From the NCBI GenBank assembly GCA_018064885.1, contig JAGHUI010000040.1, positions 1 to 52,117 of the forward strand: a stretch of 52,117 nt of DNA, given 5' to 3'. Each line of letters starts with the position of its first letter. Positions within the stretch are counted from its first letter, which is position 1. The notes below the pieces were generated by a model. That model was not told the DNA's origin. It searched no databases and saw only the letters and a list, made by a program, of their open reading frames with translations. Positions 4,503 through 50,492 of this stretch are shown one piece after another. The stretch comes from Candidatus Minthosoma equi (GTDB lineage Bacteria; Bacteroidota; Bacteroidia; Bacteroidales; Bacteroidaceae). The position numbers and the translations under genes are program-made.

Positions 4503-4534
4503 CTTGACAATATCAATAATTTTTCGTATATTTG
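4503..4534 (+). promoter_or_regulatory. Promoter of repeat-RNA unit, copy 1
   Basis: CTTG (4503-4506), a 20-base spacer, then TATATTTG (4527-4534). The other copy of the unit (39531-39562, minus strand) has CTTG, a 20-base spacer and TAACTTTG, with nearly the same spacer (GACAATnTCAATnATTTTTCG). Conservation of the promoter along with the transcribed part supports real transcription. Confidence 0.65.
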
Positions 4535-4540
4535 CATTGC

Positions 4541-4664
4541 AAATCTCTGAAAGAGAAACAAAATCATACAAACCAGTCAAAGCTTTTGTCTAATGAGCCA
4601 AAAGCTTTGTCCAACGAGTCAAAAGCTTTGTCGCATGAGCCAAAGCTTTTGTCTCGTTTTTTTT
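4541..4664 (+). ncRNA. Putative small RNA of four 21-nt repeats with intrinsic terminator, copy 1
   Basis: The predicted transcript starts about 7 nt after the -7 box and ends in eight T's at 4657-4664. Its body is four 21-nt units (4575-4595, 4596-4616, 4617-4637, 4638-4656), each centred on a near-palindromic CAAAGCTTTTG or CAAAAGCTTTG core. The last unit folds into a short hairpin (GAG, CAAA / TTTG, CTC) directly before the T8, the layout of a rho-independent terminator. A second copy with the same order of parts lies at 39345-39524 on the minus strand. No credible peptide is encoded. Function is unknown. The RNA call is inference from promoter, terminator and duplication. The alternative is an untranscribed repeat, or a leader and attenuator of the efflux operon downstream. 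Confidence 0.5.
4575..4656 (+). repeat. Four tandem 21-nt units with AAGCTT cores
   Basis: Units alternate AGTCAAAGCTTTTGTCTAATG-like and AGCCAAAAGCTTTGTCCAACG-like versions, with exact 21-nt spacing. The same unit is found four times at 39355-39438 on the other strand. Confidence 0.85.
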
Positions 4665-4732
4665 ACGGGCATTTACATGATGATAATACGAGTGTTTGCA
4701 CGTCGCAAATACGGGCATTTGCATACAGAAAT
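4665..4732 (+). repeat. Three tandem units of about 23 nt after the T8 run
   Basis: Units begin ACGGGCATTTACA (4665), ACGAGTGTTTGCA (4688) and ACGGGCATTTGCA (4711), each ending AAT. The copy at 39.3 kb also has 23-nt units after its T8 run, so this second array belongs to the same composite element. Confidence 0.7.
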
Positions 4733-4777
4733 ATCAGTATTAGCGGTTTTTGCAATTCAGTTGCAAGAATTATTCAA

Positions 4778-18500: not shown

Positions 18501-21500
18501 GTCACGATAGCCAGTCACGAATGCCTTGAGCGAGTTAGCTTCATAATAGTAGTCATTGAGCTTCACAGAGAAATTCATATAGCGGAGAGCATCCTCTTCT
18601 GTCTGGCTGAATGTAGTGTTGCCAGCCTGGAACACAATAGTTGCCATACCCAAAGAGTCAAGTTCATACTCCTCCTTAGCATTGTTGCTGAGCAAACCGT
18701 TTTGAACAATGAGAGTGCCACCATCAAGATGGACCTCATCCAAAACGTTAGTCTCTTCATTATTATAGTAATAATCCTCGTGTGCTCTTACTTGGAAGGT
18801 ATATTTATTGCCTTGAGAGAACACAGGATAACCGAACAGATAGTCAACAGTTTTTGTATCCTTATCATATTTCGCAATAGTTGCTTCCACAGCCTTACCT
18901 TCAAGATTCATCTCGACAATTTTCTCATCGCCAAGGAATCCTGTCTTCTGACCATATCTATACTGCTCGTATGTGACAGTGGCAGGCTTATGATATGCAC
19001 GCACATAGCTCGCATTGAGATCTATGCTTTGGTTAGAACCTGACAGAGTTCTTGTTATTGTTCGAGTAGCGATACTATCCGTAAGGTCAACAACATCAAA
19101 GCCTTCGCCATCACTGTAGAGAGTGCTGTAACCTTCTGCTGAGAGCTGAGTTACTTTATATTTCGTTGGGAAAAGATCTACAAAGAACTCACCTGTCACA
19201 GAGTCAGGCTGGATAATGATACGCTTGCGCTGATAGCTGATAGAAGTCTTTGCCTCATGATCAGGATATAAACCCTTGTGTGGATGCGTCACACTATCTT
19301 CTCTTTCTGTAATTTCTGGATGTTTAACATCATAGACAAGAAGTGAACTATTGTCACCCTCAAGCTGAAGCACAATAGTGGCATTGTCACCAAGGTTGTT
19401 CTTTGAAAGACCGAAGCCAAGAGGCTTTCTTGCCTCCACATTACCACCGCTGAGACGGCCAACGAGACGAGTTTTTGTATTGTCATAATAAACACCGTCC
19501 TCGTATGAACCTCCATCTTGAAGCTTCTCAGGAGCATCAGCAGTACCAACGATATATCCGTCATTATCAAAAGCATGACCATCCTTCTGCATCTGCACTC
19601 GTACCTCGTTCTTGTATGGCACAAGGATAGCAAAGTAACCGTTAGCATCAGTCTTTAATGGTTCGCCATCATCGTTCTTGAATTTGGTTGTTACACCATC
19701 AAATGTGAGATTGAATGTTACATCACGCACAGGAACTGTAGATTTCTGGTAATAGACATTTCCCGAAACACGCTTGTAGCTTGAACATACAAACTTGATG
19801 CCAGTCTTCTCTGGCTGACTATTGCTCAGAGATATATTAGCAGCTTCATGCTTTCCAGCATACTCGAATTCATTGCCACCATAGTTTACGTTGATTACAT
19901 ACTTAGTGTTGACACTATCCACACAGCTGAAAAGCACATCGTTAAGTTCAAATGCACCAGTCTCGTCTGTTGTGATAATCCTGCTGAACGAAGTGGTGTC
20001 GGCACTAATCTGTTCAGACGTTGCTTCTGCATTTCGTCTTTGAGGAGCATCTGCAATAATGCCTTCCTGAACGCCCTTCATCACAAGATTGCCCTCACCA
20101 TCATACACATCTTCTATATATATATATTGTGGAGACTCACGATTAATCACAACCTTAGCACCCGCAATACCTACGCCATTAGGCATAACAACACGACCTG
20201 CCAGCTTTCCTCTATAGGAAGGATAACCCAAAGCAGTTTTCTTATATGAATATGTCTTTTGACGATAAACGTATGTTGCCGTGAGTTGGTATTCCCAAAC
20301 ATGGCCCGGCTGAGCCAAAAGGTCATTGTACTCCTCGTCGGCATTAGCAATTTTCACTTTCTCCCAAACGTTTTTGCCATCTTGGGAATATTCTCTGCGT
20401 TCCAGAGTGAGAGAGCTCATCTCGCCTGCACCTAAAGTCCAGTGAACATTGACTTTTCCGACAAGGTCACGCGATGCAACAAAATTGCTGATAAGCGCAG
20501 CCTTCTCTGTGTAGCTCAGGTTTGCTTCTTCCTCAGTTGTTGACAGAGGCTCGTTGAGGGTACTCTCCATAAATTCAGAGTCTGTGCCATCCACCTTTGC
20601 ACTATAATAATAATGAGTGTATGGCAAAGATTGGCAGTCCTGAATTTCAGCATAGTAAACACCCTTTTCTGCATCCCATAGCACATCGTTGCCTCTTACG
20701 GTGAATGTGCGGGCAATTGCATCCTTGCCTTCGTTGTATTCGATTTCAGGACTGTATCTCGAAATCACTACCTCTGCATTCTCATCCCAGCGGTAACGGC
20801 GATAATCCAGATTATTCTCCTTTGCAAACTTGTGTATAGCAGCAGAATCAGCCCTCATATTATATTCCCAAGGATAAGGGTTCTGCAATTCCACTCGGAC
20901 AGTCACATTCTTGTCCTCTGACCAGTAATTTCCCTGAGTCACATTTATCTTTGTCACAATAGGGAGTGTGGAATTTGTAGCAAGAGAATCTTCAACAATA
21001 AACTTGCCTCGGTGGGATGGCCACATAGACTGTGTCAGACCACGATATACCTGATAGTAGTATTTCTTTGAAGGATGAGAATAGAAACCCTTCAAAGCAG
21101 TCTTGTCAAAATCGTCCAGATAAGTGGCACTGTCTATCTGCTGCTCTATTCTGCTGTCAATAGTAAGTTCCTTATTGCCTGATCCCAGTTCCAGCTGACT
21201 TTCTTCCATGTCGTCAATCACAGAGAACCAACCAATGGTAGTTCCGTCTCTACGCTTCATCTTTTTCATATTAGAATCATCCAGATATGCAGAGCCAATA
21301 GCCTCATACTGGAAGAAGTCAGGAGTTGTGGAACGAATGACAACAAATGGGTCTGCACTCTGAATATCTTCATCATCAGGATTCTCAATATACCACTTCA
21401 CTTCTGTTTGAGGATGCTTGATGCCTACAGAGTCAGGATTGCCTATCTCGTTGACAGTAAGTCCCTTGATAGAGTGGTATGGCTTGTATGAGAAATGAGA

Positions 21501-22571
21501 AACAGCAAATTCAGCATCCTTGTATGATCCAGAATCGTCACTCTTCTGCACAATCAGTTTAGTCACCAAAGCAAGGTTAACGGTCTTTTCTGAATGAGGG
21601 AGCGAAATTTCCAATCCGTTACTTGGCGAAGCAGAGTTGTCTGTATAGTTGTAGAGCTGATTTGTGTCATCGCCCTTATTTATGAGCCAGCTCTGACAAA
21701 TCTGATTGGCAGAACTTGCATAAACCTTCACATTACCCACATCGCAAAGGTCTGCCTGAACATCGAGATATGGTTCGATAACATTCAATCCCAAGTCTTC
21801 CTTCTGAGTCAATGAATTATCAATATCAAGCACCTTATTACATGTGAGACAGTGAGCTTTAAGTACGCCATCTACCTCAACAATTTCCATATACTTATGG
21901 TCTTCACACTGTTCATAATGTCCAATAGGAGATTCTTTTGTAAGCATCTTATTGTTGTCAGCAAAATCCATCAGAGTGTAATTTGTACCAGAAGGCTTCT
22001 TATATGGATGATAATCATGCTTCAATATATTATCTTCGTATATCTGACAGCTGTAAATGTCAATACATGAATATGCTGAGGATTCTTTGTTGTCTTGGTA
22101 CCGGACGGTGCCTATAGCAAAAGGTATTGATGTTGACATAGAGGTACCTCCAACTGTCAGCACCTGATCATGATAATCGGGCAGTTTCTCATAATCCTTA
22201 TCGACAATGAATTGATCCTTGTCGAGAGTAAGAACGTATATAGCACCATCCTGCAGCTTAACTTTGTCTGCTATGAATTTTGTGTCGCCATAAGTTGCTG
22301 TAAGCACACCACTTGATACTCTAAACTGGAATCTCTGCTTGCTATCATTCTGGTGCCATGAACCAAACAAATCCTTATCAGCACCGTCAGTTGGTTTATG
22401 ATACTTGAAATGCAACTTCACTCTGGTACTCAGTTTTGGAGCATAGCCCGTGTCGAAATACAAGTTATTTTTTGAATCTACATAACCTGCTCTCACATAG
22501 TTACGATCCTGAGCTGCCATCTGCAGCACAGTTGTGATAAGCACAAGCACAAATATACTTAATCGTCGCAT
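12585..22571 (-). CDS. Giant secreted multidomain surface protein, 3328 aa
   Basis: Signal peptide MRRLSIFVLVLITTVLQMAA, then: a concanavalin-like domain (about 28-190); a Cys-His-Cys-Cys module (C222, H225, C241, C244); fibronectin-III-like segments (about 690-780, VNVHWTLGAG); a carboxypeptidase-regulatory/transthyretin-like domain (about 787-890, RGKLAGRVVMPNGVGIAGAK); beta-rich regions; a Gly/Ser-rich amphipathic stretch near 1400-1480 (GWGASATSLVGAWTGMGAGA, then alternating Ser/Thr strands) of unknown fold; a bacterial Ig-like segment (about 2130); two LamG-like domains (about 2190-2590); a BACON-like segment (about 2733-2820); and a tail DVYDINGIKYE...KGVFIIDGKKKM like many Prevotella secreted proteins. 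Probably exported and displayed on the cell surface or released. Large adhesins of this kind bind host or plant glycans, but no ligand can be assigned. Second gene of the surface operon. Confidence 0.82.
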   Translation of the reverse strand: MRRLSIFVLVLITTVLQMAAQDRNYVRAGYVDSKNNLYFDTGYAPKLSTRVKLHFKYHKPTDGADKDLFGSWHQNDSKQRFQFRVSSGVLTATYGDTKFIADKVKLQDGAIYVLTLDKDQFIVDKDYEKLPDYHDQVLTVGGTSMSTSIPFAIGTVRYQDNKESSAYSCIDIYSCQIYEDNILKHDYHPYKKPSGTNYTLMDFADNNKMLTKESPIGHYEQCEDHKYMEIVEVDGVLKAHCLTCNKVLDIDNSLTQKEDLGLNVIEPYLDVQADLCDVGNVKVYASSANQICQSWLINKGDDTNQLYNYTDNSASPSNGLEISLPHSEKTVNLALVTKLIVQKSDDSGSYKDAEFAVSHFSYKPYHSIKGLTVNEIGNPDSVGIKHPQTEVKWYIENPDDEDIQSADPFVVIRSTTPDFFQYEAIGSAYLDDSNMKKMKRRDGTTIGWFSVIDDMEESQLELGSGNKELTIDSRIEQQIDSATYLDDFDKTALKGFYSHPSKKYYYQVYRGLTQSMWPSHRGKFIVEDSLATNSTLPIVTKINVTQGNYWSEDKNVTVRVELQNPYPWEYNMRADSAAIHKFAKENNLDYRRYRWDENAEVVISRYSPEIEYNEGKDAIARTFTVRGNDVLWDAEKGVYYAEIQDCQSLPYTHYYYSAKVDGTDSEFMESTLNEPLSTTEEEANLSYTEKAALISNFVASRDLVGKVNVHWTLGAGEMSSLTLERREYSQDGKNVWEKVKIANADEEYNDLLAQPGHVWEYQLTATYVYRQKTYSYKKTALGYPSYRGKLAGRVVMPNGVGIAGAKVVINRESPQYIYIEDVYDGEGNLVMKGVQEGIIADAPQRRNAEATSEQISADTTSFSRIITTDETGAFELNDVLFSCVDSVNTKYVINVNYGGNEFEYAGKHEAANISLSNSQPEKTGIKFVCSSYKRVSGNVYYQKSTVPVRDVTFNLTFDGVTTKFKNDDGEPLKTDANGYFAILVPYKNEVRVQMQKDGHAFDNDGYIVGTADAPEKLQDGGSYEDGVYYDNTKTRLVGRLSGGNVEARKPLGFGLSKNNLGDNATIVLQLEGDNSSLLVYDVKHPEITEREDSVTHPHKGLYPDHEAKTSISYQRKRIIIQPDSVTGEFFVDLFPTKYKVTQLSAEGYSTLYSDGEGFDVVDLTDSIATRTITRTLSGSNQSIDLNASYVRAYHKPATVTYEQYRYGQKTGFLGDEKIVEMNLEGKAVEATIAKYDKDTKTVDYLFGYPVFSQGNKYTFQVRAHEDYYYNNEETNVLDEVHLDGGTLIVQNGLLSNNAKEEYELDSLGMATIVFQAGNTTFSQTEEDALRYMNFSVKLNDYYYEANSLKAFVTGYRDKGTDVVTFDNDIDVVDVLRDPYGAGSYSWIESGTSYEWSHDFKVSLGLNVTLTPGWGASATSLVGAWTGMGAGAFFGQEISTSSSFKISSTIPIINGGYTHNATYSMTTNQKISTSSDPLDVGAMADVYIGTVNTAKINTAETFSVIDQTTYEAVEGAINRGTIRVVKDGVDDEGERFYLVVAEKVHLNIDDSKRQFAYSQKYILGTLIPNLIDTRDNLLIYAPDSTVIEEMSKNANEPKYWSRVKADDPRFGLKGYYKMYNSSQKQVVDEVQRLNIMIAKWTEIIKDNEQTKINHMGDSGEGVIKYSIAGTSVEYSENFTSYYASKPIVVAAGYNVLNGNFSYGANASGSPTDQKYSSNSKDYANKVNDAIETYKAFPKQNIDFGTRAPGMNFSFKVAPSVDFNLTNNNACPKVNSAGRGYYIDTNDESYFDIDVVKVPNIGYSDKYLMDQDEIDFATSAKQDVAKKSKFSDFLFYLKGGAVRNPYFPADSTFFAGEDGKSVKLGNDPLKMDNPKIYVEQPIVNNLPEDEKAIFTVHLTNESELGQNVQYLRPSHFMLYVEDSTNPYGAKFTMDGEPLTEGRDFIIGPGESIVKTIEVERGNGYDFTNLQLVFRDSYAKLADIANVSINYLPMASKVNISSPTDKWVMNTFSAMDEKGRYYIPVNIDGFNVHSDGFHHVELQYKKQTEGDSQWVTVTSFYNDSTLFAQATGNKEMIPLSGKISNVKFYGEKDPMEMKYDLRAVAFRALGTGYATRASNVMSGTKDTRSPEVFGMPKPADGVFRFDDVISIPFNEPIAYNYLNKTSNFQVVGYLNDNNTTYSTSLRLENGLSFMTGTISIPTSKVYRNLTDNDFTIDMMVKIEPDSLWNSNYLYVMVDTLSSTDKHASSSYLAYVYENDRFYVSINDITFKSDSVNIASLRGNLTHVGMAFKQKGKNNGPEVTFFLGDTTIKTVAITNANDSVITDPENINIGAIKGIVMLGAVMNGAMTDARLWNKALSLSEFMSKKSKILRRNEPSLYAYWPIDEGKGNILFDKVNGCDLYCTAPTWQIPDGQHSLKLSGKPVMFDDAAVERLGCSNYDDFTLSFWYKVNDETFGSGSNSSSVTLFKAGDVADSEYFRLGLHNQSLMLTSGKKSYKISDADTFSNEWHNVIVIVNKSQNMSSFYYDGQLASSLPCEDIAGLQNHAVQFGDEGFYGNFDNFTFWNLAFPANSIGQIYNYAPTGYEMGLECFLPFEMDDTENGNHQPVFSPYNMKFNEEKVNGEPTGNRVLDRTDMFKLSEEEIKNVDDETLYCPVYPATGMTNIPFSWTAADNELQINIKKADRDINHQTLTITVRNVEDLQGNVLANPQMMMVYVDRNVLVWDDKHLKLDVNYGEGETDYIWFQNLSGRTVPYSIVENCSWMSIDVTQGVIDPLGENEIVMRISPDLAPGEYETMLYLIDDNGLSSSLPISINVKAREPEWSVTEDEDYKYTMNIMGQVELANSGGKKYIDTNESDIVAAFYNNVCVGMANITKDESGIPYIYLTVKGNENMLPKTYDGTTTYKEISFMLWNSQTNQVSILNPFKRLDSENVKSTRINFTNNGVVGCPPNYPIIFTPSNEIMQNIAFSHGWNWMSFNITPKNNTGINGLFQNNSAFTPGDRIVYVNKNGGRVSSEFLIDANGQQKWSSDIDDIDNKKHHVYQLYAQNPGTLTVFGYHIPESDRWVELYPNTSNPSKGLWNELAYLLEVDQPIQTAMSDYSAGKSVVGTVIKNLTLFAVADREGKWVGSLKAMHPGQGYYTKYISQDDNPEPIKINYTNTVIDRSARTRAMSISSKLSTQTFDLDLVLSEPTEYNANMPVIATLGEGVEYEEGDEIIAYANGVIAGRAKVTDLDNGEQLFFISVNAEEGASVRFALVHDDKVKGKSMNGLMYDSDVVCGSLDVPFAIDFTNSESGDVYDINGIKYEKPEDIKARKGVFIIDGKKKMKNEN

Positions 22572-22677: not shown

Positions 22678-25600
22678 TTACTTCCTTATTTTTCTCGTTG
22701 TTCCATTCTTGAACTTGACAATGTTGATGCCATTCTGTGGTGCGTTCAATCTCACACCGCTTGGAGTATAGAACTCAGCACCGTTCAAGTCTTGGAGTTT
22801 ACCATCATCCATTATTGCTATGCCTGTAGCATCGTCACCGAAATTGAGGAAATAACGCTCAGGAGCCTCCGTAGAAGTAGGATTGCTCATGATATAGGCA
22901 TGGTATGGACGGACAGAGAGCGATGATGTAATACGGAAGAAGGTGTCACCCTGGATAGCATATATTGTCGCTTCTGAGACATCCTTAATATCAATGTTCA
23001 CTTTAGTAAATGATCCATTCAATGTCAGTCCCTCAGAAATATTCACGCTTGCTTCAACTGGCACAATATCAGAACCTTCATGTGTAATGTAGAGTGTATC
23101 AGAAGCTTCTTTCATCTTGAATATGCATGGAATTCCAGCTTCGACAGCATCCACTTGCTGAAGATTGATGAACGAATTATCATTCTCTTTATTTGTCACA
23201 TTCTTAGCAACATAGAGATCAAAATCTGGATGCTCATCTGCTTTGATTGCAAATGGCAGACAGATTGTTCCATACATTGTGCCTGGGGTGAGAGTGCGAG
23301 AGTAGCTAAAGCTCTTTCCTTGGAATGCATTAGCTGAAGCGAATCCATTGATGCCATCATCCACAATGTTGATTGCGGAGGTGTTCTCATCGTTGATTGC
23401 AAGAGTGTCGCCATTGCATGTGAAAGCATCTGTCCACTGAGCCACGAGAACCGTTGTATCTGGATGGTTTTCAGGTACGGTCATCGTTGCGCCGTCACTA
23501 ATGAGTTCACCAAACGTGCCATCAGCTTTCTTCTCGCGCCATCCGCTGAATATGCTAAGAGGCTTTGTGAACGTGCAAGGCTTAAGAGTGTCAGAAACAA
23601 CAATTCGCTGAATGCCCATGTGTCCTTTTACGCTTTCGTCTTTCTCAAATTTCACATCAGTATAATAACCAATACCTTCTTTATGATCGCAGATGTAGCA
23701 ATGCTTCATCACTTTGCCATTTTCAAATGTTTCCATGTAATACTTATGGGCGCATTTGTTTTTATCTATCTGAACTGTAGCATTTTTGACTGGAACATAT
23801 TCATTTGCCACAACATCGTAAATTCCAGCAGATTTATTGAAATAGGCAGGCATGAAATAGTGTCTCAATGCACCTTCTTGCATGATAGCATATTCGTATA
23901 TCAATGAACTTTCGTTCAAGTCAGGATACTTGGCATCTATATGCTGAACAGGCTTGCTGTCTTTTTCCATATCTATATATATAATGTGTTTCTTATTCTC
24001 TGGCTGAACTGCTTTGAGATCGTCAGCAGATTTCACACTCAGAGCATTGAGAGGGTCAGTGACAACATCGCAGATGCAGCAATGCTTTCTGTATTTGCCA
24101 TCTGAATTCTTTTCCAACTTATAGTACTTATGGTACTGACATTCTGGAATATAGTATGACTGTACTTGTCCTTCAAATTCCTCAAATGTACCAGTCACAG
24201 CATCGTACATTCTCACCTTGCCTTCAAAATGGCTTGGGAAATAGTTGTGAATAAGCTTACCTTCGCTATTATAGACTGGGGTATTCTTCACATCAGTATT
24301 TGTTTCATAATCAATCGTTCCGAGCGTAATGGTCTTATCGGCATTGACAAAGCGTGATGTGCCGTTGGTGCGGATGAAACCTTCTGCCAGCTCTTCGTCA
24401 GTCAGCGGAACATATTCATCGCAAACCCAGCATAGCTTCTGCCATTTCCCGTCTTTCTGTACGATGTCGCAGTACTTATGTTCCTCACATTTCTTCACAT
24501 AGCCGATCAAATTCTCGCTTTCAGAATAGATATATTTACAATGAACAAGGTCGAGGAATCCCAAACGATTGTCTTTCTTGGCAGGAACGTATTTGCGCAC
24601 ACAATCATCTCCTTGGTATATATCCAAGAAATAGTAGTGGAATGGGAATGATGCCCAACTATAGTCGAGATTACCATTATTCACATTTGAAAAACTTATA
24701 GTCGTTTTTCCTGTATATTCTTTGATGTTTGGACGTGTTGAATGATATACGGATGCCTTCATTTCTGGAGATTTATACACATATAGTTCATTCTTCTTGA
24801 AACTTATGTATTCGTCCACATGTCCCCTGCTCGCATATCCATCGTCGCTATCAGTCCATTTGTAGTTGTACTGTTTTTTATCTTTATCTTTGCTGAGTTC
24901 GAGATAGTAGGAACCATCAGCCGTAAGACCATCTTCAGAATTGTTAGCCTGTCCAAACAGATAGTTGAAAGATTTATTCTCTAAATCATTTGTGTTGAAG
25001 CCAACGCGCACGTTTGTATTGATGTCGGGCGTGATTCCTGTGTTAAATATTTTATCGTCAACAGCAATATAGTTGCGATTGTCTGTGTATTCTTCATCAC
25101 AAATGGCACACTTGAACTGGCGTGTCTTGTCATCGTTTATCTTGAACAATACTCCATATTTATGCTCCTTGCATGGAACGATGTGTACCATGCTTTCGTC
25201 ATAGCTGACTGATGACTGGCGTTTGATTGGTTGCAAGGTTTTGCCATATATGACATCAAACAGGCAAGGTGACATATTACCATCAACAGTCTTCTTTATA
25301 GGAAGATACCTTCTGACAAGATTGTTTCCATCATAAATATCCATCTTGTAGAAAGTCATATTGCCGCACCAAAGACTTTCCTGCTTTGTGTCGTTGAAGA
25401 TATACAAATCATTTGAAATATCCCATTGATTATTTTTATTAGCTTCTGTTTTATAATCAGATAGAATATTTCCAACTACATCACATAACTTTATATATAT
25501 GTTTTTATCATCACGACTGACTGTGAGGGAATAAATTTCTCCCTTTTCGAGATGTCTTGGAAGAGTGTATGTAATATTATTCTTACCATGAAGAAACAGA

Positions 25601-28536
25601 GTATATTTACCTGACTGATTAGGAACCTCTTTTATACTTGCTGAAATTTGTTTGCTATTGTCATAACAGCCAAACAAATGATTGCCAGAAACGTTAGTAG
25701 CATCATAGCCATCAATGCGGAAGCGCATTTCTATCTTCGTGTTATTGTTAATCCTAACATCGCTCTGGAAGTAATACTTCTGCTGAGTACTGATGCTACC
25801 TTCTTTGTCCTCAATCTCGAACGGTGCTTTTGCATCCTTACCTTTCATGGCGTGGAAGACACTGTCAATAGTGTCAAAAAAGCCATAAACTCCACATTTT
25901 GTAGAAGGTAGGAACTTGTGGAGCAATTTTCCGCTTTCGTAGATTTCGTACGAGAAAAGCTTATAGTTGGAAAGACAATCGCCCAAGCCTGTAGCAGTTG
26001 ATGTTAAGTGAACGGCACCAACCAGAAGCGTCAAGGTGCTATCTGGCTGATAGTTAGAGGACGAGTAGCTATAGTCAACCAGATTCTCGCTGTAATCTGA
26101 ATTGCGGCTGATGACGAGGTTCTTCATGCTCATCTTGAGATAATACTCATTCGATGGAGTGAGTCCATAGCCGTATGCCTCCCTCAAGTTTGAGTTGCCT
26201 TTCTCTGTTCCTACTGGCTGAGGATAACATACGGTAATGCGGTCAGTTCTATCATCTAATGCAAACTCTGACTGTGGATTATCATAACTAATTCCGAAGA
26301 AGTTCTGAACTGAACGTACCTTAGCTTCCTGATGGATGAAGTGCATGCGAATTTCGGTCTTGTTGTTTGGCACATATCCTGTGTCGAAGTAAGACGTTCC
26401 ATTGAAGTCAATGTATGGTTCGTCGTCAGCATTGTAATTGAAAGTCTTGCCGCAGATGATACACTCACGATTGTTCGACTTATTGAAGAAGTAGCCATAA
26501 TGCTGGTCATTCTTGCACGAAGCCACCTGACCTTCAAACCATTCTGAATTTCTTGGCTTTATATCACTTGCACTATGCTTTTCGTACAGACATATCGCAT
26601 CCTTGCTATCTTTATTTCTATATACTGGCACAATGTCTTTGATCAGATTGCCCTTCTCCCAGACCTTCACGAAGCAGATATTCATGTCGGCGATGCAGTC
26701 CTCTGACAACGAGCCAATTTTACCTACTTCCATATTAACGGAATTCGCATGGAAAGGATATACAGCAAAATCATGGTGATAGTAGTCCTGTCCTTCCTTT
26801 GCATTTGGAATGGAGTCGATGACGATGTGTCCATTCTTTAATGTAATATAATATGTATTGTCAGGCTTGGCAATACCTGCAGGCGACTGCAATTCTTTGC
26901 ATCCTGTAGCAAAATGGAAACTATTGTCGGAAGCATCCACCCATACACCAAACACGTCATTGCGTGACAACGCGGCAGTACCTCCTGACGATGCAGAACC
27001 GAAGATGGCGTTTATACCTTTCTTGATGCTGTTCAGCTTCACACATATCTGCACCTCGGTGTTTTCTGTTGCCAAAGAGTTGAGAGAGAAGTAATTGACA
27101 GGCTTACCATCATCGTTGGCAGTCTTCACGAATGAAGGGATATCAGCTAAGCCATGATTTACCATATAGTAATAGCCTGGTATTTCTGTGCTGTTTGAGA
27201 CGGAACAATTGGCATCAACAGTCACATTTTTCGATTTGCTTGGATCTTCAACATAATATCCGCCATATATTGTTATGCCAGGATATGTTTCTTGAGAATC
27301 ATTAAGCGCTTTGACAAACGTTTTAATTCCATAAACATCTATCTTGCCATCTACACGATTGCAGACAATGTTAAAGTATTCACCACTTTCTATAATAATG
27401 TGGTTGTTGAAGGATAAGAGATCCTTGAGAACCTTTACGTTGCTCAGTTTCACAATACTGTTATCCGAACGGTTTGTTGCAAAATCCATTATAGTACCAT
27501 TCTGAACCAGTACAGCGTCTTGGATGGTATTCACCAAAGATACTTTACTAAGCGTATGACCATTAAGGTTGAAATTGAGAGGCTTATCGATGGTAATTTC
27601 TGATTCCAAGTCCTCCATCACCGTTATCTCATCTTTAGCATTGGCATCATTTATAGCTGCCTGCAAATCAGCGTAAGACTTTCCTGTATTCTTATTCACA
27701 GCTTTTGCTTTTTGCCAGATAGCGTAAAGTGTTGGATAGTTCTGTTCGAAATCATCGCCTTTAACTTCAACCTGATCCACAAACGACTTGCCATTGCCGT
27801 CAGATTGCGTATTCCATTTATCAAAAATATAATCTTTTCTACTGAATTTCTCGCTCGGCAGATTGCCTTTATCCACAAAGGCGTATGGCGACATTGTGCC
27901 TGATCCGCCATTAGAGTTAAAGTTTATTTTCACAAACTTACCTTTGTAGTATTTTACATTAAAATATATGTATTTGCCACCTGCACCCTCATTCATATCC
28001 GCATTAGGACTCAACTCTCCATCCTTGTACTTGCTGACATAGTCAGTGGAATTTTGGGAATTGTCAAACCACTCTACGCTGATGGATGTCATCAAGCCAT
28101 TGACCTCAGGTTTGCCTTTGGTGTAAAAAAGAAACAGATCCTTACTGCCGCTGTGACCTCTGTTCATGTCACCGTTAAAATCGCTGCTGTTGCGTGGCGC
28201 CAGATTATAAGTGCAGTTATTATAGATTTTGGGAGAATTTGCGTCATACGCAACAAACATTCCTGTTATAGCCTCTGCAGGATTATCCGTTTTCTTATAA
28301 CCTAAATAGATGTACCATCCTCTGGCACCCTTATTCAGGTCTTTGTCTATCACTTCGTAGCCATTCTTTTTCAGCCATTCCTGGGCATTGCCACCACCAG
28401 CAACAGCCACATCGCTGATGTATTTCTGAGCCATACACTGAGAAATGCTAACAAAAGGTGCAACAGCAAACAGCGTTGCTGCAATAAGCATGCGCACAAT
28501 AAATAATCTTTGTAAATATTTCATATTTTCATTCAT
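22678..28536 (-). CDS. Secreted multidomain protein, 1952 aa, with MABP-like beta-prism and repeated C-H-C-C modules
   Basis: Signal peptide through CMAQ (about 37); the ATG at 28524 (MKYLQRLF) is an equally good start. Residues 38-195 look like an MABP-type beta-prism: ISDVAVAGGG, then DLNKGARG (66), DMNRGHSG (123) and DMNEGAGG (180), exactly 57 residues apart, each followed by an aromatic strand. An InlB B-repeat/Flg_new domain follows (about 202-274, ending LYAIWQ). Then come a beta-helix-like region (about 285-480, FNLNGHTL), and several concanavalin-like domains, each followed by a Cys-x(2-3)-His ... Cys-x2-Cys module (near 672, 1117, 1346, 1463, 1592). A second InlB-like segment (about 1625-1705) and a typical Prevotella tail (FYTPSGVRLNAPQNG, NIVKFKNG) end the protein. 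First gene of the surface operon. Function is inferred to be surface binding; no catalytic motif seen. Confidence 0.82.
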   Translation of the reverse strand: MNENMKYLQRLFIVRMLIAATLFAVAPFVSISQCMAQKYISDVAVAGGGNAQEWLKKNGYEVIDKDLNKGARGWYIYLGYKKTDNPAEAITGMFVAYDANSPKIYNNCTYNLAPRNSSDFNGDMNRGHSGSKDLFLFYTKGKPEVNGLMTSISVEWFDNSQNSTDYVSKYKDGELSPNADMNEGAGGKYIYFNVKYYKGKFVKINFNSNGGSGTMSPYAFVDKGNLPSEKFSRKDYIFDKWNTQSDGNGKSFVDQVEVKGDDFEQNYPTLYAIWQKAKAVNKNTGKSYADLQAAINDANAKDEITVMEDLESEITIDKPLNFNLNGHTLSKVSLVNTIQDAVLVQNGTIMDFATNRSDNSIVKLSNVKVLKDLLSFNNHIIIESGEYFNIVCNRVDGKIDVYGIKTFVKALNDSQETYPGITIYGGYYVEDPSKSKNVTVDANCSVSNSTEIPGYYYMVNHGLADIPSFVKTANDDGKPVNYFSLNSLATENTEVQICVKLNSIKKGINAIFGSASSGGTAALSRNDVFGVWVDASDNSFHFATGCKELQSPAGIAKPDNTYYITLKNGHIVIDSIPNAKEGQDYYHHDFAVYPFHANSVNMEVGKIGSLSEDCIADMNICFVKVWEKGNLIKDIVPVYRNKDSKDAICLYEKHSASDIKPRNSEWFEGQVASCKNDQHYGYFFNKSNNRECIICGKTFNYNADDEPYIDFNGTSYFDTGYVPNNKTEIRMHFIHQEAKVRSVQNFFGISYDNPQSEFALDDRTDRITVCYPQPVGTEKGNSNLREAYGYGLTPSNEYYLKMSMKNLVISRNSDYSENLVDYSYSSSNYQPDSTLTLLVGAVHLTSTATGLGDCLSNYKLFSYEIYESGKLLHKFLPSTKCGVYGFFDTIDSVFHAMKGKDAKAPFEIEDKEGSISTQQKYYFQSDVRINNNTKIEMRFRIDGYDATNVSGNHLFGCYDNSKQISASIKEVPNQSGKYTLFLHGKNNITYTLPRHLEKGEIYSLTVSRDDKNIYIKLCDVVGNILSDYKTEANKNNQWDISNDLYIFNDTKQESLWCGNMTFYKMDIYDGNNLVRRYLPIKKTVDGNMSPCLFDVIYGKTLQPIKRQSSVSYDESMVHIVPCKEHKYGVLFKINDDKTRQFKCAICDEEYTDNRNYIAVDDKIFNTGITPDINTNVRVGFNTNDLENKSFNYLFGQANNSEDGLTADGSYYLELSKDKDKKQYNYKWTDSDDGYASRGHVDEYISFKKNELYVYKSPEMKASVYHSTRPNIKEYTGKTTISFSNVNNGNLDYSWASFPFHYYFLDIYQGDDCVRKYVPAKKDNRLGFLDLVHCKYIYSESENLIGYVKKCEEHKYCDIVQKDGKWQKLCWVCDEYVPLTDEELAEGFIRTNGTSRFVNADKTITLGTIDYETNTDVKNTPVYNSEGKLIHNYFPSHFEGKVRMYDAVTGTFEEFEGQVQSYYIPECQYHKYYKLEKNSDGKYRKHCCICDVVTDPLNALSVKSADDLKAVQPENKKHIIYIDMEKDSKPVQHIDAKYPDLNESSLIYEYAIMQEGALRHYFMPAYFNKSAGIYDVVANEYVPVKNATVQIDKNKCAHKYYMETFENGKVMKHCYICDHKEGIGYYTDVKFEKDESVKGHMGIQRIVVSDTLKPCTFTKPLSIFSGWREKKADGTFGELISDGATMTVPENHPDTTVLVAQWTDAFTCNGDTLAINDENTSAINIVDDGINGFASANAFQGKSFSYSRTLTPGTMYGTICLPFAIKADEHPDFDLYVAKNVTNKENDNSFINLQQVDAVEAGIPCIFKMKEASDTLYITHEGSDIVPVEASVNISEGLTLNGSFTKVNIDIKDVSEATIYAIQGDTFFRITSSLSVRPYHAYIMSNPTSTEAPERYFLNFGDDATGIAIMDDGKLQDLNGAEFYTPSGVRLNAPQNGINIVKFKNGTTRKIRK

Positions 28537-28800: not shown

Positions 28801-28872
28801 GGTGTGAGTCACACCACCTACATAGGTGTGAGTCAGAGCACCTATACCGATGTGAGTCACACCACTTTCGTG
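28801..28872 (+). repeat. Three tandem 24-nt units with GGTGTGAGTCACACC palindrome
   Basis: Units start at 28801, 28825 and 28849. The first contains the palindrome GGTGTGA-G-TCACACC, the third keeps all but one base of it, and the middle one has a compensating longer inverted repeat TAGGTG...CACCTA. The exact 24-nt period and dyads suggest a protein-binding array or a stem-loop RNA. Confidence 0.75.
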
Positions 28873-39257: not shown

Positions 39258-39352
39258 ATAGGGGAATACCATTGTGATGAGTGAAAGAGAACACTCGTAT
39301 TTCCAACATGCATTTACCCGCATTATCAACTTATAAATGCCCATAAAAAAAA

Positions 39353-39373
39353 CGGGACATAAGTTTTGTCCCG
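39353..39373 (-). terminator. Terminator hairpin of repeat-RNA copy 2
   Basis: Seven perfect pairs (CGGGACA/TGTCCCG) around a seven-base loop, followed on the minus strand by eight T's. This is a textbook intrinsic terminator. Confidence 0.8.
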
Positions 39374-39438
39374 TTAGACAAAGCTTTTGGCTCATTAGAC
39401 AAAAGCTTTGATTCATTAGCCATAAGTTTTGATTTGTT
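39355..39438 (-). repeat. Four tandem 21-nt units, second locus
   Basis: Plus-strand starts at 39355, 39376, 39397 and 39418; units carry AAAGCTTTTG, AAAAGCTTTG or ATAAGTTTTG cores. Same unit and copy number as 4575-4656. Confidence 0.85.
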
Positions 39439-39530
39439 TGTATGTTTCTTAACCGTTGCGGAAAAACAATACTATGTAACAGATAAGAAACACATATATA
39501 ATATATGTTAGCGAACTTGCATTACGAGTA

Positions 39531-39562
39531 CAAAGTTACGAAAAATAATTGAGATTGTCAAG
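39531..39562 (-). promoter_or_regulatory. Promoter of repeat-RNA unit, copy 2
   Basis: Minus strand: CTTG (39559-39562), 20-base spacer, TAACTTTG (39531-39538). Same spacing and nearly the same spacer sequence as copy 1. Confidence 0.65.
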
Positions 39563-41926: not shown

Positions 41927-41962
41927 GGGAGGCGTTTTCGTTTTAGTTTTCGTTTTAGTTAT
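41875..41962 (+). repeat. Mixed 7-nt AAAGGTC and CGTTTTAGTTTT repeats across a gene end
   Basis: AGGTCAAAGGGTAAAGGTCAAATGTC-type copies cover the last codons of the GT4 gene, then GGTTAGAGGTTAGG, then CGTTTTAGTTTTCGTTTTAG (the complement of the AACGAAAACTAA unit). Together they fill the spacer to the next gene. Confidence 0.75.
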
Positions 41963-48731: not shown

Positions 48732-49238
48732 ATGAAAAAAATATTCCTAATAGCATCATTAATCATGTCAATTTTTGTACTATCATGCACAGCAGCAAGC
48801 GACAAAAATCCTAAAGGCAAACAACTCACCTGCTATTCATACAGTCATCATGGCACAGTGGCACAACCATTCGAAGACATTGAAGTGAGGAAGACTGACA
48901 GCTGCTGCACCGCTTGCGTCTTCACTTCTGGAGACGACGACTTTACCTACAAAACCTATGCCGTTGGCGAAGACCTTTTGGACAGCATACAGAACGTCAT
49001 CATCAACCACAAGATGTATAAGTACAAGAATCACTATGAGCCAATTTTCGAAGTTCTTGACGGTGACTCATGGCACTACGAGGCTGTATATTCCGACCGA
49101 ACCATTCTCAGCAGCGGCGGTCACTGTGCCGGTCCTAAGGATGATGGAACGACCGTAATCAACAACATCATCAAAAACTATGTCAAGAAGTGTGAAGTAA
49201 TAAAATCAGAAACTTGGGAAGAAAGAGTAGGACGATAA
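48732..49238 (+). CDS. Small lipoprotein, unknown function
   Basis: 168 aa from the ATG at 48732: MKKIFLIASLIMSIFVLSC (Cys19) is a lipoprotein signal; an in-frame ATG at 48639 lies before the promoter and is rejected. The body has TCYSYSHHGTVAQPFEDIEV, YKTYAVGEDLLDSIQNVI, and YSDRTILSSGGHCAG. No catalytic motif recognised. First of three consecutive lipoprotein genes that share a GAAAACATGAAAAAAAT start region. The leader (48680-48731) is degenerate AACGAAAAC repeats. Its stop codon lies inside the next repeat array. Confidence 0.7.
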   Translation: MKKIFLIASLIMSIFVLSCTAASDKNPKGKQLTCYSYSHHGTVAQPFEDIEVRKTDSCCTACVFTSGDDDFTYKTYAVGEDLLDSIQNVIINHKMYKYKNHYEPIFEVLDGDSWHYEAVYSDRTILSSGGHCAGPKDDGTTVINNIIKNYVKKCEVIKSETWEERVGR

Positions 49239-49287
49239 CGAAAACGATAACGAAAACGATAACGAAAACTATAACGAAAACTATAAC
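49234..49287 (+). repeat. 12-nt GATAACGAAAAC/TATAACGAAAAC repeats in lipoprotein spacer
   Basis: Four units from 49234, with the upstream gene's TAA stop in the first. They run to TATAACTGAAAAC directly before the next ATG. The whole spacer is repeat, and the extended reading frame across it would give TITKTITK, an artefact. Confidence 0.85.
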
Positions 49288-49294
49288 TGAAAAC

Positions 49295-50413
49295 ATGAAA
49301 AAAATTCTCACATTGGCATTTGCAAGCATAGCACTATGGGCATGCAATGGAACGAATGCCTCCACAGCAGACGGAGAAGTGTCTGACTCCACAGGAATAG
49401 TAATCAACGAAGACGGAGAGGAAGTCAAGAGTGACCTCCCTTGCACCTTAGACGAACTGCTCTACGCATGGTATAGCACATTCAACGCACCAGGATTCGA
49501 GACATGCTACCCAGATGAGTATCTCCTGACTGATGTTGACGAAGACGGCATACCGGAAATCTTTGTTCAGCAAACCGATGGAGACCATCAGTCACTCGTA
49601 CTTGAATGGAAGGACAACACATTGAAAACCTTGGACATGTGCTTTGACGGCTATCAGACACCAGGCATTGCTAAAGGAGGCTTTATCGTAGTAGAATATG
49701 ACTACCACGACGGCCCAGAAGTTCGTCATTACGAATACTCATGGCTGAAGCGCAAGAACGGAGAAACCGTCAGCTCAGGTTCTAATTCTATGATTATTGA
49801 CAACCGCGAGCCTGAAGATATCGACGAAGAGGAAGAGCCTGAATATCATCTTGAAGACAACCCTTATTGCGATGCCGACACATACTATAAGGTTGCCCCA
49901 AAGGTGGAAGACATGACCTTCGCCTACGATATGAAGGGATGGAAGAAAATTCCTAAAATAGACTTCACTTTCCGCACCAGATACAAGGCTTTCATTCAGG
50001 ACGCTACTGGCACACCAACAAATGTGCGTACATCACCAAATGGCGAAGTCGTTGCACAGCTTCACAACAGCAATGTCATACAAGTAGATAGCTGTGCCAA
50101 CGGATGGTTCCATATTGCCACAAACACATTTGCCGACTACGACGATCCTTCTAAAACACAGAAGATTACTAGCAAGCCAGCAAAAGACCTCTGGGTACAC
50201 AAATCAGTCATCATGATGCAATGGGACAGCACCGACGGCGTAAGCTTCGCCATGTTCAGCAAGCCAGACACCGACTCCCCTATCATCTATCAGAGCGAAT
50301 GTATCAACGAAGCCATCATGGGAGTCATCGACATCAAAGGCCAGCTCGTCAAGGTGAAGCTCAGCAACGATAAAGTTGGATGGATATACCACACACTCAT
50401 CAATGGATATTAA
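49295..50413 (+). CDS. Lipoprotein with C-terminal SH3-like domain
   Basis: 372 aa from the ATG at 49295 (MKKILTLAFASIALWACNG, Cys17); the longer frame from 49214 only translates the repeat spacer. The middle has an EF-like stretch, LTDVDEDGIPEIFVQ, often seen in Bacteroidetes lipoproteins that resemble FG-GAP/VCBS calcium loops. Residues about 255-370 look like a bacterial SH3 domain: TPTNVRTSPNGEVVAQL, GWFHIA, WVHKSVI, and GWIYHTLING at the end. Such domains bind peptidoglycan or other cell-wall ligands. Second of the three-lipoprotein set. Confidence 0.75.
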   Translation: MKKILTLAFASIALWACNGTNASTADGEVSDSTGIVINEDGEEVKSDLPCTLDELLYAWYSTFNAPGFETCYPDEYLLTDVDEDGIPEIFVQQTDGDHQSLVLEWKDNTLKTLDMCFDGYQTPGIAKGGFIVVEYDYHDGPEVRHYEYSWLKRKNGETVSSGSNSMIIDNREPEDIDEEEEPEYHLEDNPYCDADTYYKVAPKVEDMTFAYDMKGWKKIPKIDFTFRTRYKAFIQDATGTPTNVRTSPNGEVVAQLHNSNVIQVDSCANGWFHIATNTFADYDDPSKTQKITSKPAKDLWVHKSVIMMQWDSTDGVSFAMFSKPDTDSPIIYQSECINEAIMGVIDIKGQLVKVKLSNDKVGWIYHTLINGY

Positions 50414-50492
50414 CGAAAAAAAACGATAACGAAAACGAAAACTATAACGAAAACTATAACGAAAACTATAACGAAAACTATAACGAAAACTG
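50411..50492 (+). repeat. 12-nt TATAACGAAAAC repeats in lipoprotein spacer
   Basis: About six units from the upstream stop (TAACGAAAA) to ACTGAAAACATG. The final four units are exact copies of ACTATAACGAAA. The spacer contains nothing else. Confidence 0.85.

Follow-up and report, generated by a model that had tools for sequence, protein, structure and literature searches.

The stretch of DNA analysed here (the window: 52,117 nt of contig JAGHUI010000040.1, Candidatus Minthosoma equi) carries two copies of one repeat-bearing unit, copy 1 at 4.5 kb on the forward strand and copy 2 at 39.5 kb on the reverse strand (Table 1). The duplication, reported in an initial annotation of the sequence, is confirmed, and the family is larger than first noted. 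The order of parts is identical in the two copies, as that annotation had claimed: TTG-N20-TAnnTTTG, a leader, four 21-nt units, a hairpin, and eight T's that are followed in both by 23-nt units. Other parts of the description hold for one copy only. The AAGCTT cores assigned to all units are found in four of four units in copy 1, and in copy 2 only in the middle two of four. A terminator hairpin made from the last unit is predicted in copy 2, where unit 4 folds on itself, whereas in copy 1 it takes units 3 and 4, and units 1 and 2 make another hairpin. The leader of copy 2 is much longer than that of copy 1. The 89-nt repeat body has a fold z-score of -8.2 in copy 1 and -6.0 in copy 2 (0 of 200 shuffles each).

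Table 1. Parts of the two copies of the unit in the window
Feature	Position	Strand	Basis or remark
Copy 1, -33 element TTG	4504..4506	+	Unvarying in 19 of 19 aligned own-genome copies; genome-wide spacing peak
Copy 1, -7 element TATATTTG (TAnnTTTG)	4527..4534	+	31-nt promoter span, as in 30 of 31 copies
Copy 1, leader	4541..4575	+	Putative start about 7 nt past the -7 box; A-rich linker kept, 5′ part variable
Copy 1, hairpin 1 (21-nt units 1 and 2)	4576..4611	+	Predicted fold
Copy 1, hairpin 2, terminator stem (21-nt units 3 and 4)	4613..4658	+	Predicted fold; both-side changes in the family at 3 of 18 pairs
Copy 1, T8 tract	4657..4664	+	Sequence and alignment
Copy 1, tail of three 23-nt units (ACGRGY...)	4665..4733	+	In 23-nt phase with T8
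Copy 2, -33 element TTG	39559..39561	-	Sequence pattern
Copy 2, -7 element TAACTTTG	39531..39538	-	Sequence pattern
Copy 2, type 2 (long) leader	39434..39524	-	Predicted hairpins; putative start site
Copy 2, four 21-nt units	39353..39433	-	Units 2 and 3 pair, unit 4 self-folds (predicted)
Copy 2, T8 tract	39345..39352	-	Sequence
Copy 2, tail of 23-nt units, decaying	39276..39344	-	Sequence

Elsewhere, the window holds two very long minus-strand open reading frames, at 12585-22571 and 22678-28536 (3328 and 1952 aa, respectively), and 12-nt tandem repeats of the type TAACGAAAACTA / TTTTAGTTTTCG at 12547-12596, 41934-41960, 49232-49304 and 50411-50491. A 23/24-nt palindromic repeat, GGTRTGAGTCACACCACC, is common to positions 28801-28865 and to another locus of the same genome (L164:16169-16232), and may represent a further dispersed repeat family.

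Copy number, promoter and predicted structure

BLAST of copy 1 against its own genome (3.51 Mb, 114 contigs) places the unit at 23 sites with 22 different upstream flanks, with E values that run from 2.4e-117 for copy 1 itself down to 1.2e-24 for the weakest separate locus. The same 23 places are recovered by R1, a covariance model built from 27 copies that span three genomes, 19 of them from this genome. The copy on contig C19 lacks its 5′ part, as the contig ends inside the unit, and the contigs of C111, C59, C11, C53 and C36b also end within the unit or at its T-tract. Six of 45 genomes of the same genus (own included) give a BLAST match; the unit itself is present only in the own genome and in G001, and in the remaining four the promoter stretch alone matches. 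R1 finds eight places in G001 and weak matches (E 0.001-0.007) in three further genomes of the genus. A single copy occurs in Candidatus Prevotella equi, the sole genome found by one pattern scan of genome contigs, a scan that may leave out near relatives of the own genome. The copy on C68 and the one on contig C112 of G001 are the same locus (3 kb, 92.8%); since G001 is listed as 5% contaminated, C112 may not be its own. Collections of phages and plasmids gave no blastn match to the unit, and viral contigs gave none to one exact pattern of it; on these searches we rejected a phage or plasmid origin.

The span from TTG to the end of TAnnTTTG is exactly 31 nt in each of the 22 own-genome copies whose upstream side is present (found by alignment in C79, which has TTGG, and by pattern in the other 21), in seven of eight G001 copies and in the one equi copy; the other G001 copy has no promoter. 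TAnnTTTG at -7 and TTTG near -33 form the consensus of the Bacteroidota housekeeping sigma factor as given in passages of PMC7366714. Across 13 type-1 copies (those with a short leader), identity is 100% at the nine core promoter positions, 72% in the spacer, 55% in the 5′ leader, 89% in the linker and 93.5% in the repeat body. C79 has another sequence in place of the upstream promoter half, yet its TTG stands at the unchanged distance. In 881,330 bases (both strands of 440,665) of the own genome, the commonest gap between TTG and TAnnTTTG is 20 (38 matches, part of which are members of this family), with 28 matches at 19, 15 at 21 and 4-18 at the remaining gaps from 14 to 27. Given that the core letters do not vary while spacer and 5′ leader have diverged, and that C79 keeps its TTG distance, the simplest reading is that selection acts on promoter geometry. 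By eye, the promoter of C79 (L028, G000:C79:26599-26732) is like that of the next downstream gene, as if the copy lay behind a duplicated gene promoter.

Two leader types precede the repeats. Among the 22 own-genome copies with 5′ DNA, 17 are type 1, with a short, A-rich leader (C9 is an outlier whose leader is 11 nt longer), and five are type 2, with a long one (C67b, which is copy 2, C81, C45, C26 and C65); G001 has six of type 2, one of type 1 and the promoterless copy. Ten of the 11 type-2 copies keep a distance of 186-189 nt between -7 box and T-tract, even though few letters are shared in the first half. All 11 type-2 leaders are predicted to fold more stably than their shuffles do on average (z -1.7 to -6.6). 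Their first hairpin is variable and in several copies not significant alone, and the second has a GTTGC/GCAAC stem, the lower part of which changes on both sides. Type-1 leaders are mostly unpaired (z below -2 in just 3 of 13). A type-2 model run against 399 genomes of the family gave, outside the own genome, only weak matches (E 1e-4 to 0.008) in four genomes, all of which have R1 array matches.

The repeat body aligns over 89 columns in 27 copies from three genomes with no indels. In most copies the four 21-nt units are predicted to form two tandem hairpins, with 93.3% of cells paired in the terminator helix (helix 2) and 86.5% in helix 1; the helix of units 1 and 2 is weak in type-2 copies. 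Changes on both sides occur at 5 of 31 pairs, namely 42/79, 44/77 and 52/69 in the terminator helix and 7/30 and 2/35 in hairpin 1. Cells with both-side changes number 17, against 7.4 in shuffles, and the covariation score is 0.087, against 0.064 when shuffled (0 of 500 shuffles reach either value). Two of five measures do not beat the shuffles (5 pairs against 4.1; 13 pair types against 13.1), and sliding the alignment by +1 gives a slightly higher score (0.091 against 0.087). Covariation support is moderate and the controls are mixed. For 25 of 27 copies (all but C65 and G001 C5) the best fold places a hairpin immediately ahead of the T-tract, which is the hairpin-then-U-tract feature of a small-RNA gene with an intrinsic terminator. 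T8 is perfect in 13 of 27 copies and interrupted by at least one other letter in the other 14, and thus some of the terminators may be weak. At the gathering score none of the 4227 families of Rfam 15 matches in the window, and lax searches gave sub-threshold matches only; membership of an Rfam family was rejected.

The 21-nt period equals seven codons, and one frame reads as [ST]KxL[SA]NE repeats, which raises the question of a small repetitive protein. The body is open in frame 1 in 25 of 27 copies and in frame 2 in 26 of 27, and the absence of indels would suit a coding sequence. However, open frames can happen as a consequence of the 21-nt period itself, frame 1 has an in-frame TAG in two copies and no conserved start, and the frame 2 ATG, present in 21 of 27 copies, is lost in six from G001. 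We therefore rejected protein coding, which we consider very improbable.

Given the conservation of both promoter and terminator, we suspect that the unit is transcribed. Copy number, promoter geometry, predicted structure, the absence of indels and the lack of a conserved start codon were all computed here, and together they make it probable that the family is a multicopy, independently transcribed small RNA. In this scenario, RNA polymerase with the Bacteroidota housekeeping sigma factor would start at TTG-N20-TAnnTTTG and read a leader that in type 1 is about 35 nt, A-rich and mostly unpaired, and in type 2 about 90 nt with predicted hairpins, one of them GTTGC/GCAAC. The four near-palindromic units would then fold, mostly into two tandem hairpins, and transcription would stop at the U-tract behind the second. 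What results would be a structured, non-coding RNA, about 124 nt long with a type 1 leader and about 180 nt long with a type 2 leader, to which at least 22 loci would contribute simultaneously. Such a molecule would likely act as a multicopy regulatory RNA, with the conserved A-rich linker as a contact site, while the hairpins would stabilise and terminate it. A scan of 307 sampled translation starts, covering part of the genome, with six RNA segments and 30 letter shuffles each, found no excess complementarity; the result is a weak one.

The small-RNA family proposed in the initial annotation is thus supported at the level of sequence, with TTG-N20-TAnnTTTG in 30 of 31 testable copies, and the predicted lengths agree with the transcript of 120-180 nt guessed there. 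Its expectation of a conserved promoter and compensatory stem changes across copies is largely borne out, as the terminator helix is mostly paired with both-side changes at 3 of its 18 pairs, tempered by the mixed covariation controls. Repeats that lack promoter and T8, which it had named as speaking against an RNA, are absent from the 22 own-genome copies with upstream DNA, and occur in one of eight G001 copies and in related but different array families. Its suggestion of several identical target or protein sites, as in a sponge, is not supported. The units form pairs among themselves (strongly so in type-1 copies) and hence are not four free, identical sites, and neither a target nor a protein was found. 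A sponge role is possible mainly for a protein, or by way of unpaired units in type 2.

Surroundings of the unit and the wider array design

All but one of the 23 copies (22 of 23) lie outside open stretches of 150 codons or more. The exception, C19 (L034, G000:C19:12125-12215, at a contig end), runs into an open reading frame whose match to Glyco_hydro_3 is confined to the middle of the profile (83-256 of 316); a 5′-truncated glycoside hydrolase 3 gene thus adjoins the copy, as might be left by an insertion or a rearrangement. Together with a copy number of 23 against 8 and 1 in relatives, the restricted distribution and the many contigs that end inside the unit, this arrangement is what a MITE-like mobile element, such as BrickBuilt, might produce if a transposase acted in trans and transcription were incidental. 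However, we saw no terminal inverted repeats: 19 copies, of which two lack a right flank, gave 6 shared inverted 9-mers where 3.4 are expected. On that count we rejected a MITE with such repeats. Nor is the right end of the unit fixed: past the T-tract, recognisable 23-nt units (ACGRGY...) follow at distances divisible by 23, if stray motif matches in C19 are set aside. We regard a mobile element of this kind as rather doubtful.

For empty sites, the flanks of copy 1, copy 2 and C4b were compared with 45 genomes of the same genus (own included). The matches were to single flanking genes (copy 1 and C4b) or short stretches (copy 2), and no conserved neighbour pair was found among the matches listed, which leaves the insertion ends undefined.

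According to a simple ORF caller, 13 of 22 copies have upstream of them a gene on the same strand that stops 4-91 nt short of TTG (at 4, 8, 12, 13, 14, 17, 25, 32, 37, 45, 57, 81 and 91 nt; within 25 nt in seven), and the unit could accordingly be imagined as a cis-acting insulator that ends transcription of the gene just upstream. The other nine copies lie behind a divergent gene or farther off, with no co-directional gene within 100 nt upstream, and a terminator would require neither a promoter nor a conserved leader. We judge this role unlikely. Downstream, copies with DNA on that side have no constant neighbour gene. Type III toxin-antitoxin RNAs also combine a promoter, tandem repeats and a terminator, and the unit shares this layout, but a ToxI-like array would stand before a toxin gene. 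Given the lack of any such constant downstream gene, we find this origin scarcely credible. A ToxN search gave no match in the own genome, and likewise none in control genomes.

The repeat design extends beyond the family. Among 399 genomes of the taxonomic family, R1 matches nine others, in seven of which the match proves, by eye, to be an array of 21-nt near-palindromes, four in number (five in G326), with neither promoter nor T-tract; in G051, G078 and G326 the array has mirrored 22/23-nt units on both sides, and the matches in G151 and G293 are not such arrays. As R1 is built on CAAAGCTTTG cores, some likeness of core letters among its matches is expected. In 400 kb of G051, stretches partly picked for holding R1 matches, Tandem Repeats Finder reports 22 arrays of 21-nt CAAAACTTTTG-type units as well as 22-nt families, and a regular expression finds 18 arrays, 17 of them outside open reading frames of at least 100 aa, with no clear strand bias. 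We also noted three families of short arrays in G051 (L141-L160): four 21-nt CAAAACTTTTG units with mirrored 22-nt flanks, three 22-nt units of TTGTAAGTGCCACTTACAA, in which GTCTT...AAGAC bounds three of six copies read, and about three 22-nt units of AAAACATTGTATG.

The own genome (440 kb sampled) has two arrays that lack their own promoter and use a different core, TTTCAAACAATGAAA (L164:5258-5400 and L166:4826-4908), the former followed by ACGRGC 23-nt units and the latter by a diverged version. At L168:13850-14400 of the same genome, ACGRGC 23-nt units lie behind a gene with no recognised 21-nt core. Counts of repeat periods from 15 to 30, in which one array may give two rows and for which all genomes scanned are Prevotella-like, peak sharply in G051 (28 at 21, 23 at 22, at most 2 elsewhere), in G326 (8 and 8 at the peak, at most 1 elsewhere) and in G029 (3 at 21, 7 at 23, at most 1 elsewhere), the last in a stretch that was not picked for an R1 match. 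The own genome is less sharp (17 at 21 and 8 at 23, but also 8 at 15 and 18, and 7 at 24), G113 has a weak excess (5 at 21, 3 at 20 and 24), and in G151 the numbers are too low (2, 1, 1). Inspection by eye shows 21-nt cores in sets of four in G029 and G151 too, different again in sequence.

These arrays bear on the possibility that the unit is a DNA-level dispersed repeat, similar to BIMEs or PINSR, whose phased near-palindromes bind a protein or shape the DNA, with promoter and terminator as passengers. The same design, a 21-nt near-palindromic core of usually four units beside 22/23-nt units, is present without a promoter both in the own genome and in other genera, the G051 arrays have no clear strand preference, and the tail units keep their 23-nt phase past the terminator. 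Passenger status would not explain, however, why the promoter core is unvarying next to a diverged spacer, or why promoter and leader replace the left-hand flank units of G051, G078 and G326. We consider this a minority possibility, though one to be taken seriously. Related arrays exist with neither promoter nor T-tract, so some other reason must account for the presence of the array part by itself.

Since promoterless arrays of this design, with different letters, turn up both in related genera and in the own genome, the small-RNA gene seems to rest on a wider class of DNA arrays. The simplest account is that an array-type repeat, in one lineage's version with promoter, leader and U-tract, may have been kept and multiplied as a small-RNA gene, which would have spread by copying of the repeat and left the 23-nt tail behind the terminator. 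More tentatively, and with somewhat less than even confidence, we suggest that Prevotella-like genomes may hold a widespread, undescribed class of DNA element that keeps its geometry and not its letters: 21-nt near-palindromes, usually four and each of two helical turns, beside 22/23-nt units that in several genomes are mirror images. Each lineage would have its own core, with about 20 arrays per 400 kb in one genome, and in the lineage of the window one array half would have acquired a promoter, a leader and a U-tract and so become a multicopy small-RNA gene.

Relation to known repeats and small-RNA families

Among the matches listed, no description of the element was found in the open-licence PMC literature. 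BIME/REP elements of enterobacteria are dispersed mosaics of short palindromic units. The present arrays are likewise dispersed and made of short palindromic units, and differ in their period of 21-23 nt and usually four core units. The array-rich G051 has no match to Y1 transposase, and there are two weak matches in G000 (one over the cut-off) and one below it in G001, with no array units within 1.5 kb. One of these weak matches is a 452-aa open reading frame (L237, G000:C35:8615-8764), which we take to be of the REP-associated type.

PINSR, a 188-bp repeat of Prevotella intermedia and P. nigrescens, is in the passages describing it (PMC4755523) dispersed, intergenic, lineage-specific and free of terminal inverted repeats, and all of this applies to the present unit, judging by its position outside long open stretches in 22 of 23 copies. 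PINSR is also overlapped by small, probably spurious coding sequences, which recalls the open frames found here. It has 177-184 copies, and those passages, on which the comparison rests, describe no promoter, terminator or 21/23-nt structure. BrickBuilt, a MITE of Porphyromonas gingivalis, resembles the unit in its 23-nt tandem units beside a leader, its 19 intergenic copies and its promoter activity, and differs in repeat sequence, in a variable repeat number of up to 22.8 and in having terminal inverted repeats; a core of four 21-nt units is not described in the text consulted (PMC4596501). The BrickBuilt unit, AGAYCATARTATCCTCTCRTRTG, has no match in the window with three mismatches allowed, and its terminal inverted repeats, GAGACCTTYGCA, are not at the element; the window has two one-mismatch matches in other places, a number reached by 11 of 100 shuffles. 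Membership of BrickBuilt fails on both, and the same two results count against a mobile element of that kind.

The nearest working example, by analogy, is FopS (the GibS family) of Bacteroides thetaiotaomicron, which in the sections of PMC11697453 available comprises 14 paralogous small RNAs that repress susC-like mRNAs at their starts and are antagonised by RbpB, an RRM protein. Like FopS, the present family appears, by sequence, to be multicopy and dispersed, with a housekeeping sigma promoter and an intrinsic terminator hairpin behind an unpaired 5′ stretch. FopS RNAs are described there as about 65-70 nt long, with a single-stranded 5′ stretch and one terminator hairpin, whereas here about 124 or 180 nt and two or more hairpins are predicted; the four 21-nt units, two leader types and 23-nt tail also set the present family apart from FopS as that text presents it. 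RRM_1 has no match in the own genome (97.6% complete) and was found in 2 of 14 control genomes, one a Bacteroides. Membership of FopS thus fails on length and single hairpin and on the RRM_1 partner. If transcribed, the present family, with 22 or more loci, would be a paralogous small-RNA family larger than the 14-member FopS family as reported in those sections, in a genome in which the search for the RRM partner of FopS found nothing. The connection to a repeat design of constant period and usually constant unit number, but changing letters, would make the origin of multicopy small RNAs testable, and with it the role of the abundant intergenic repeats of Prevotella.
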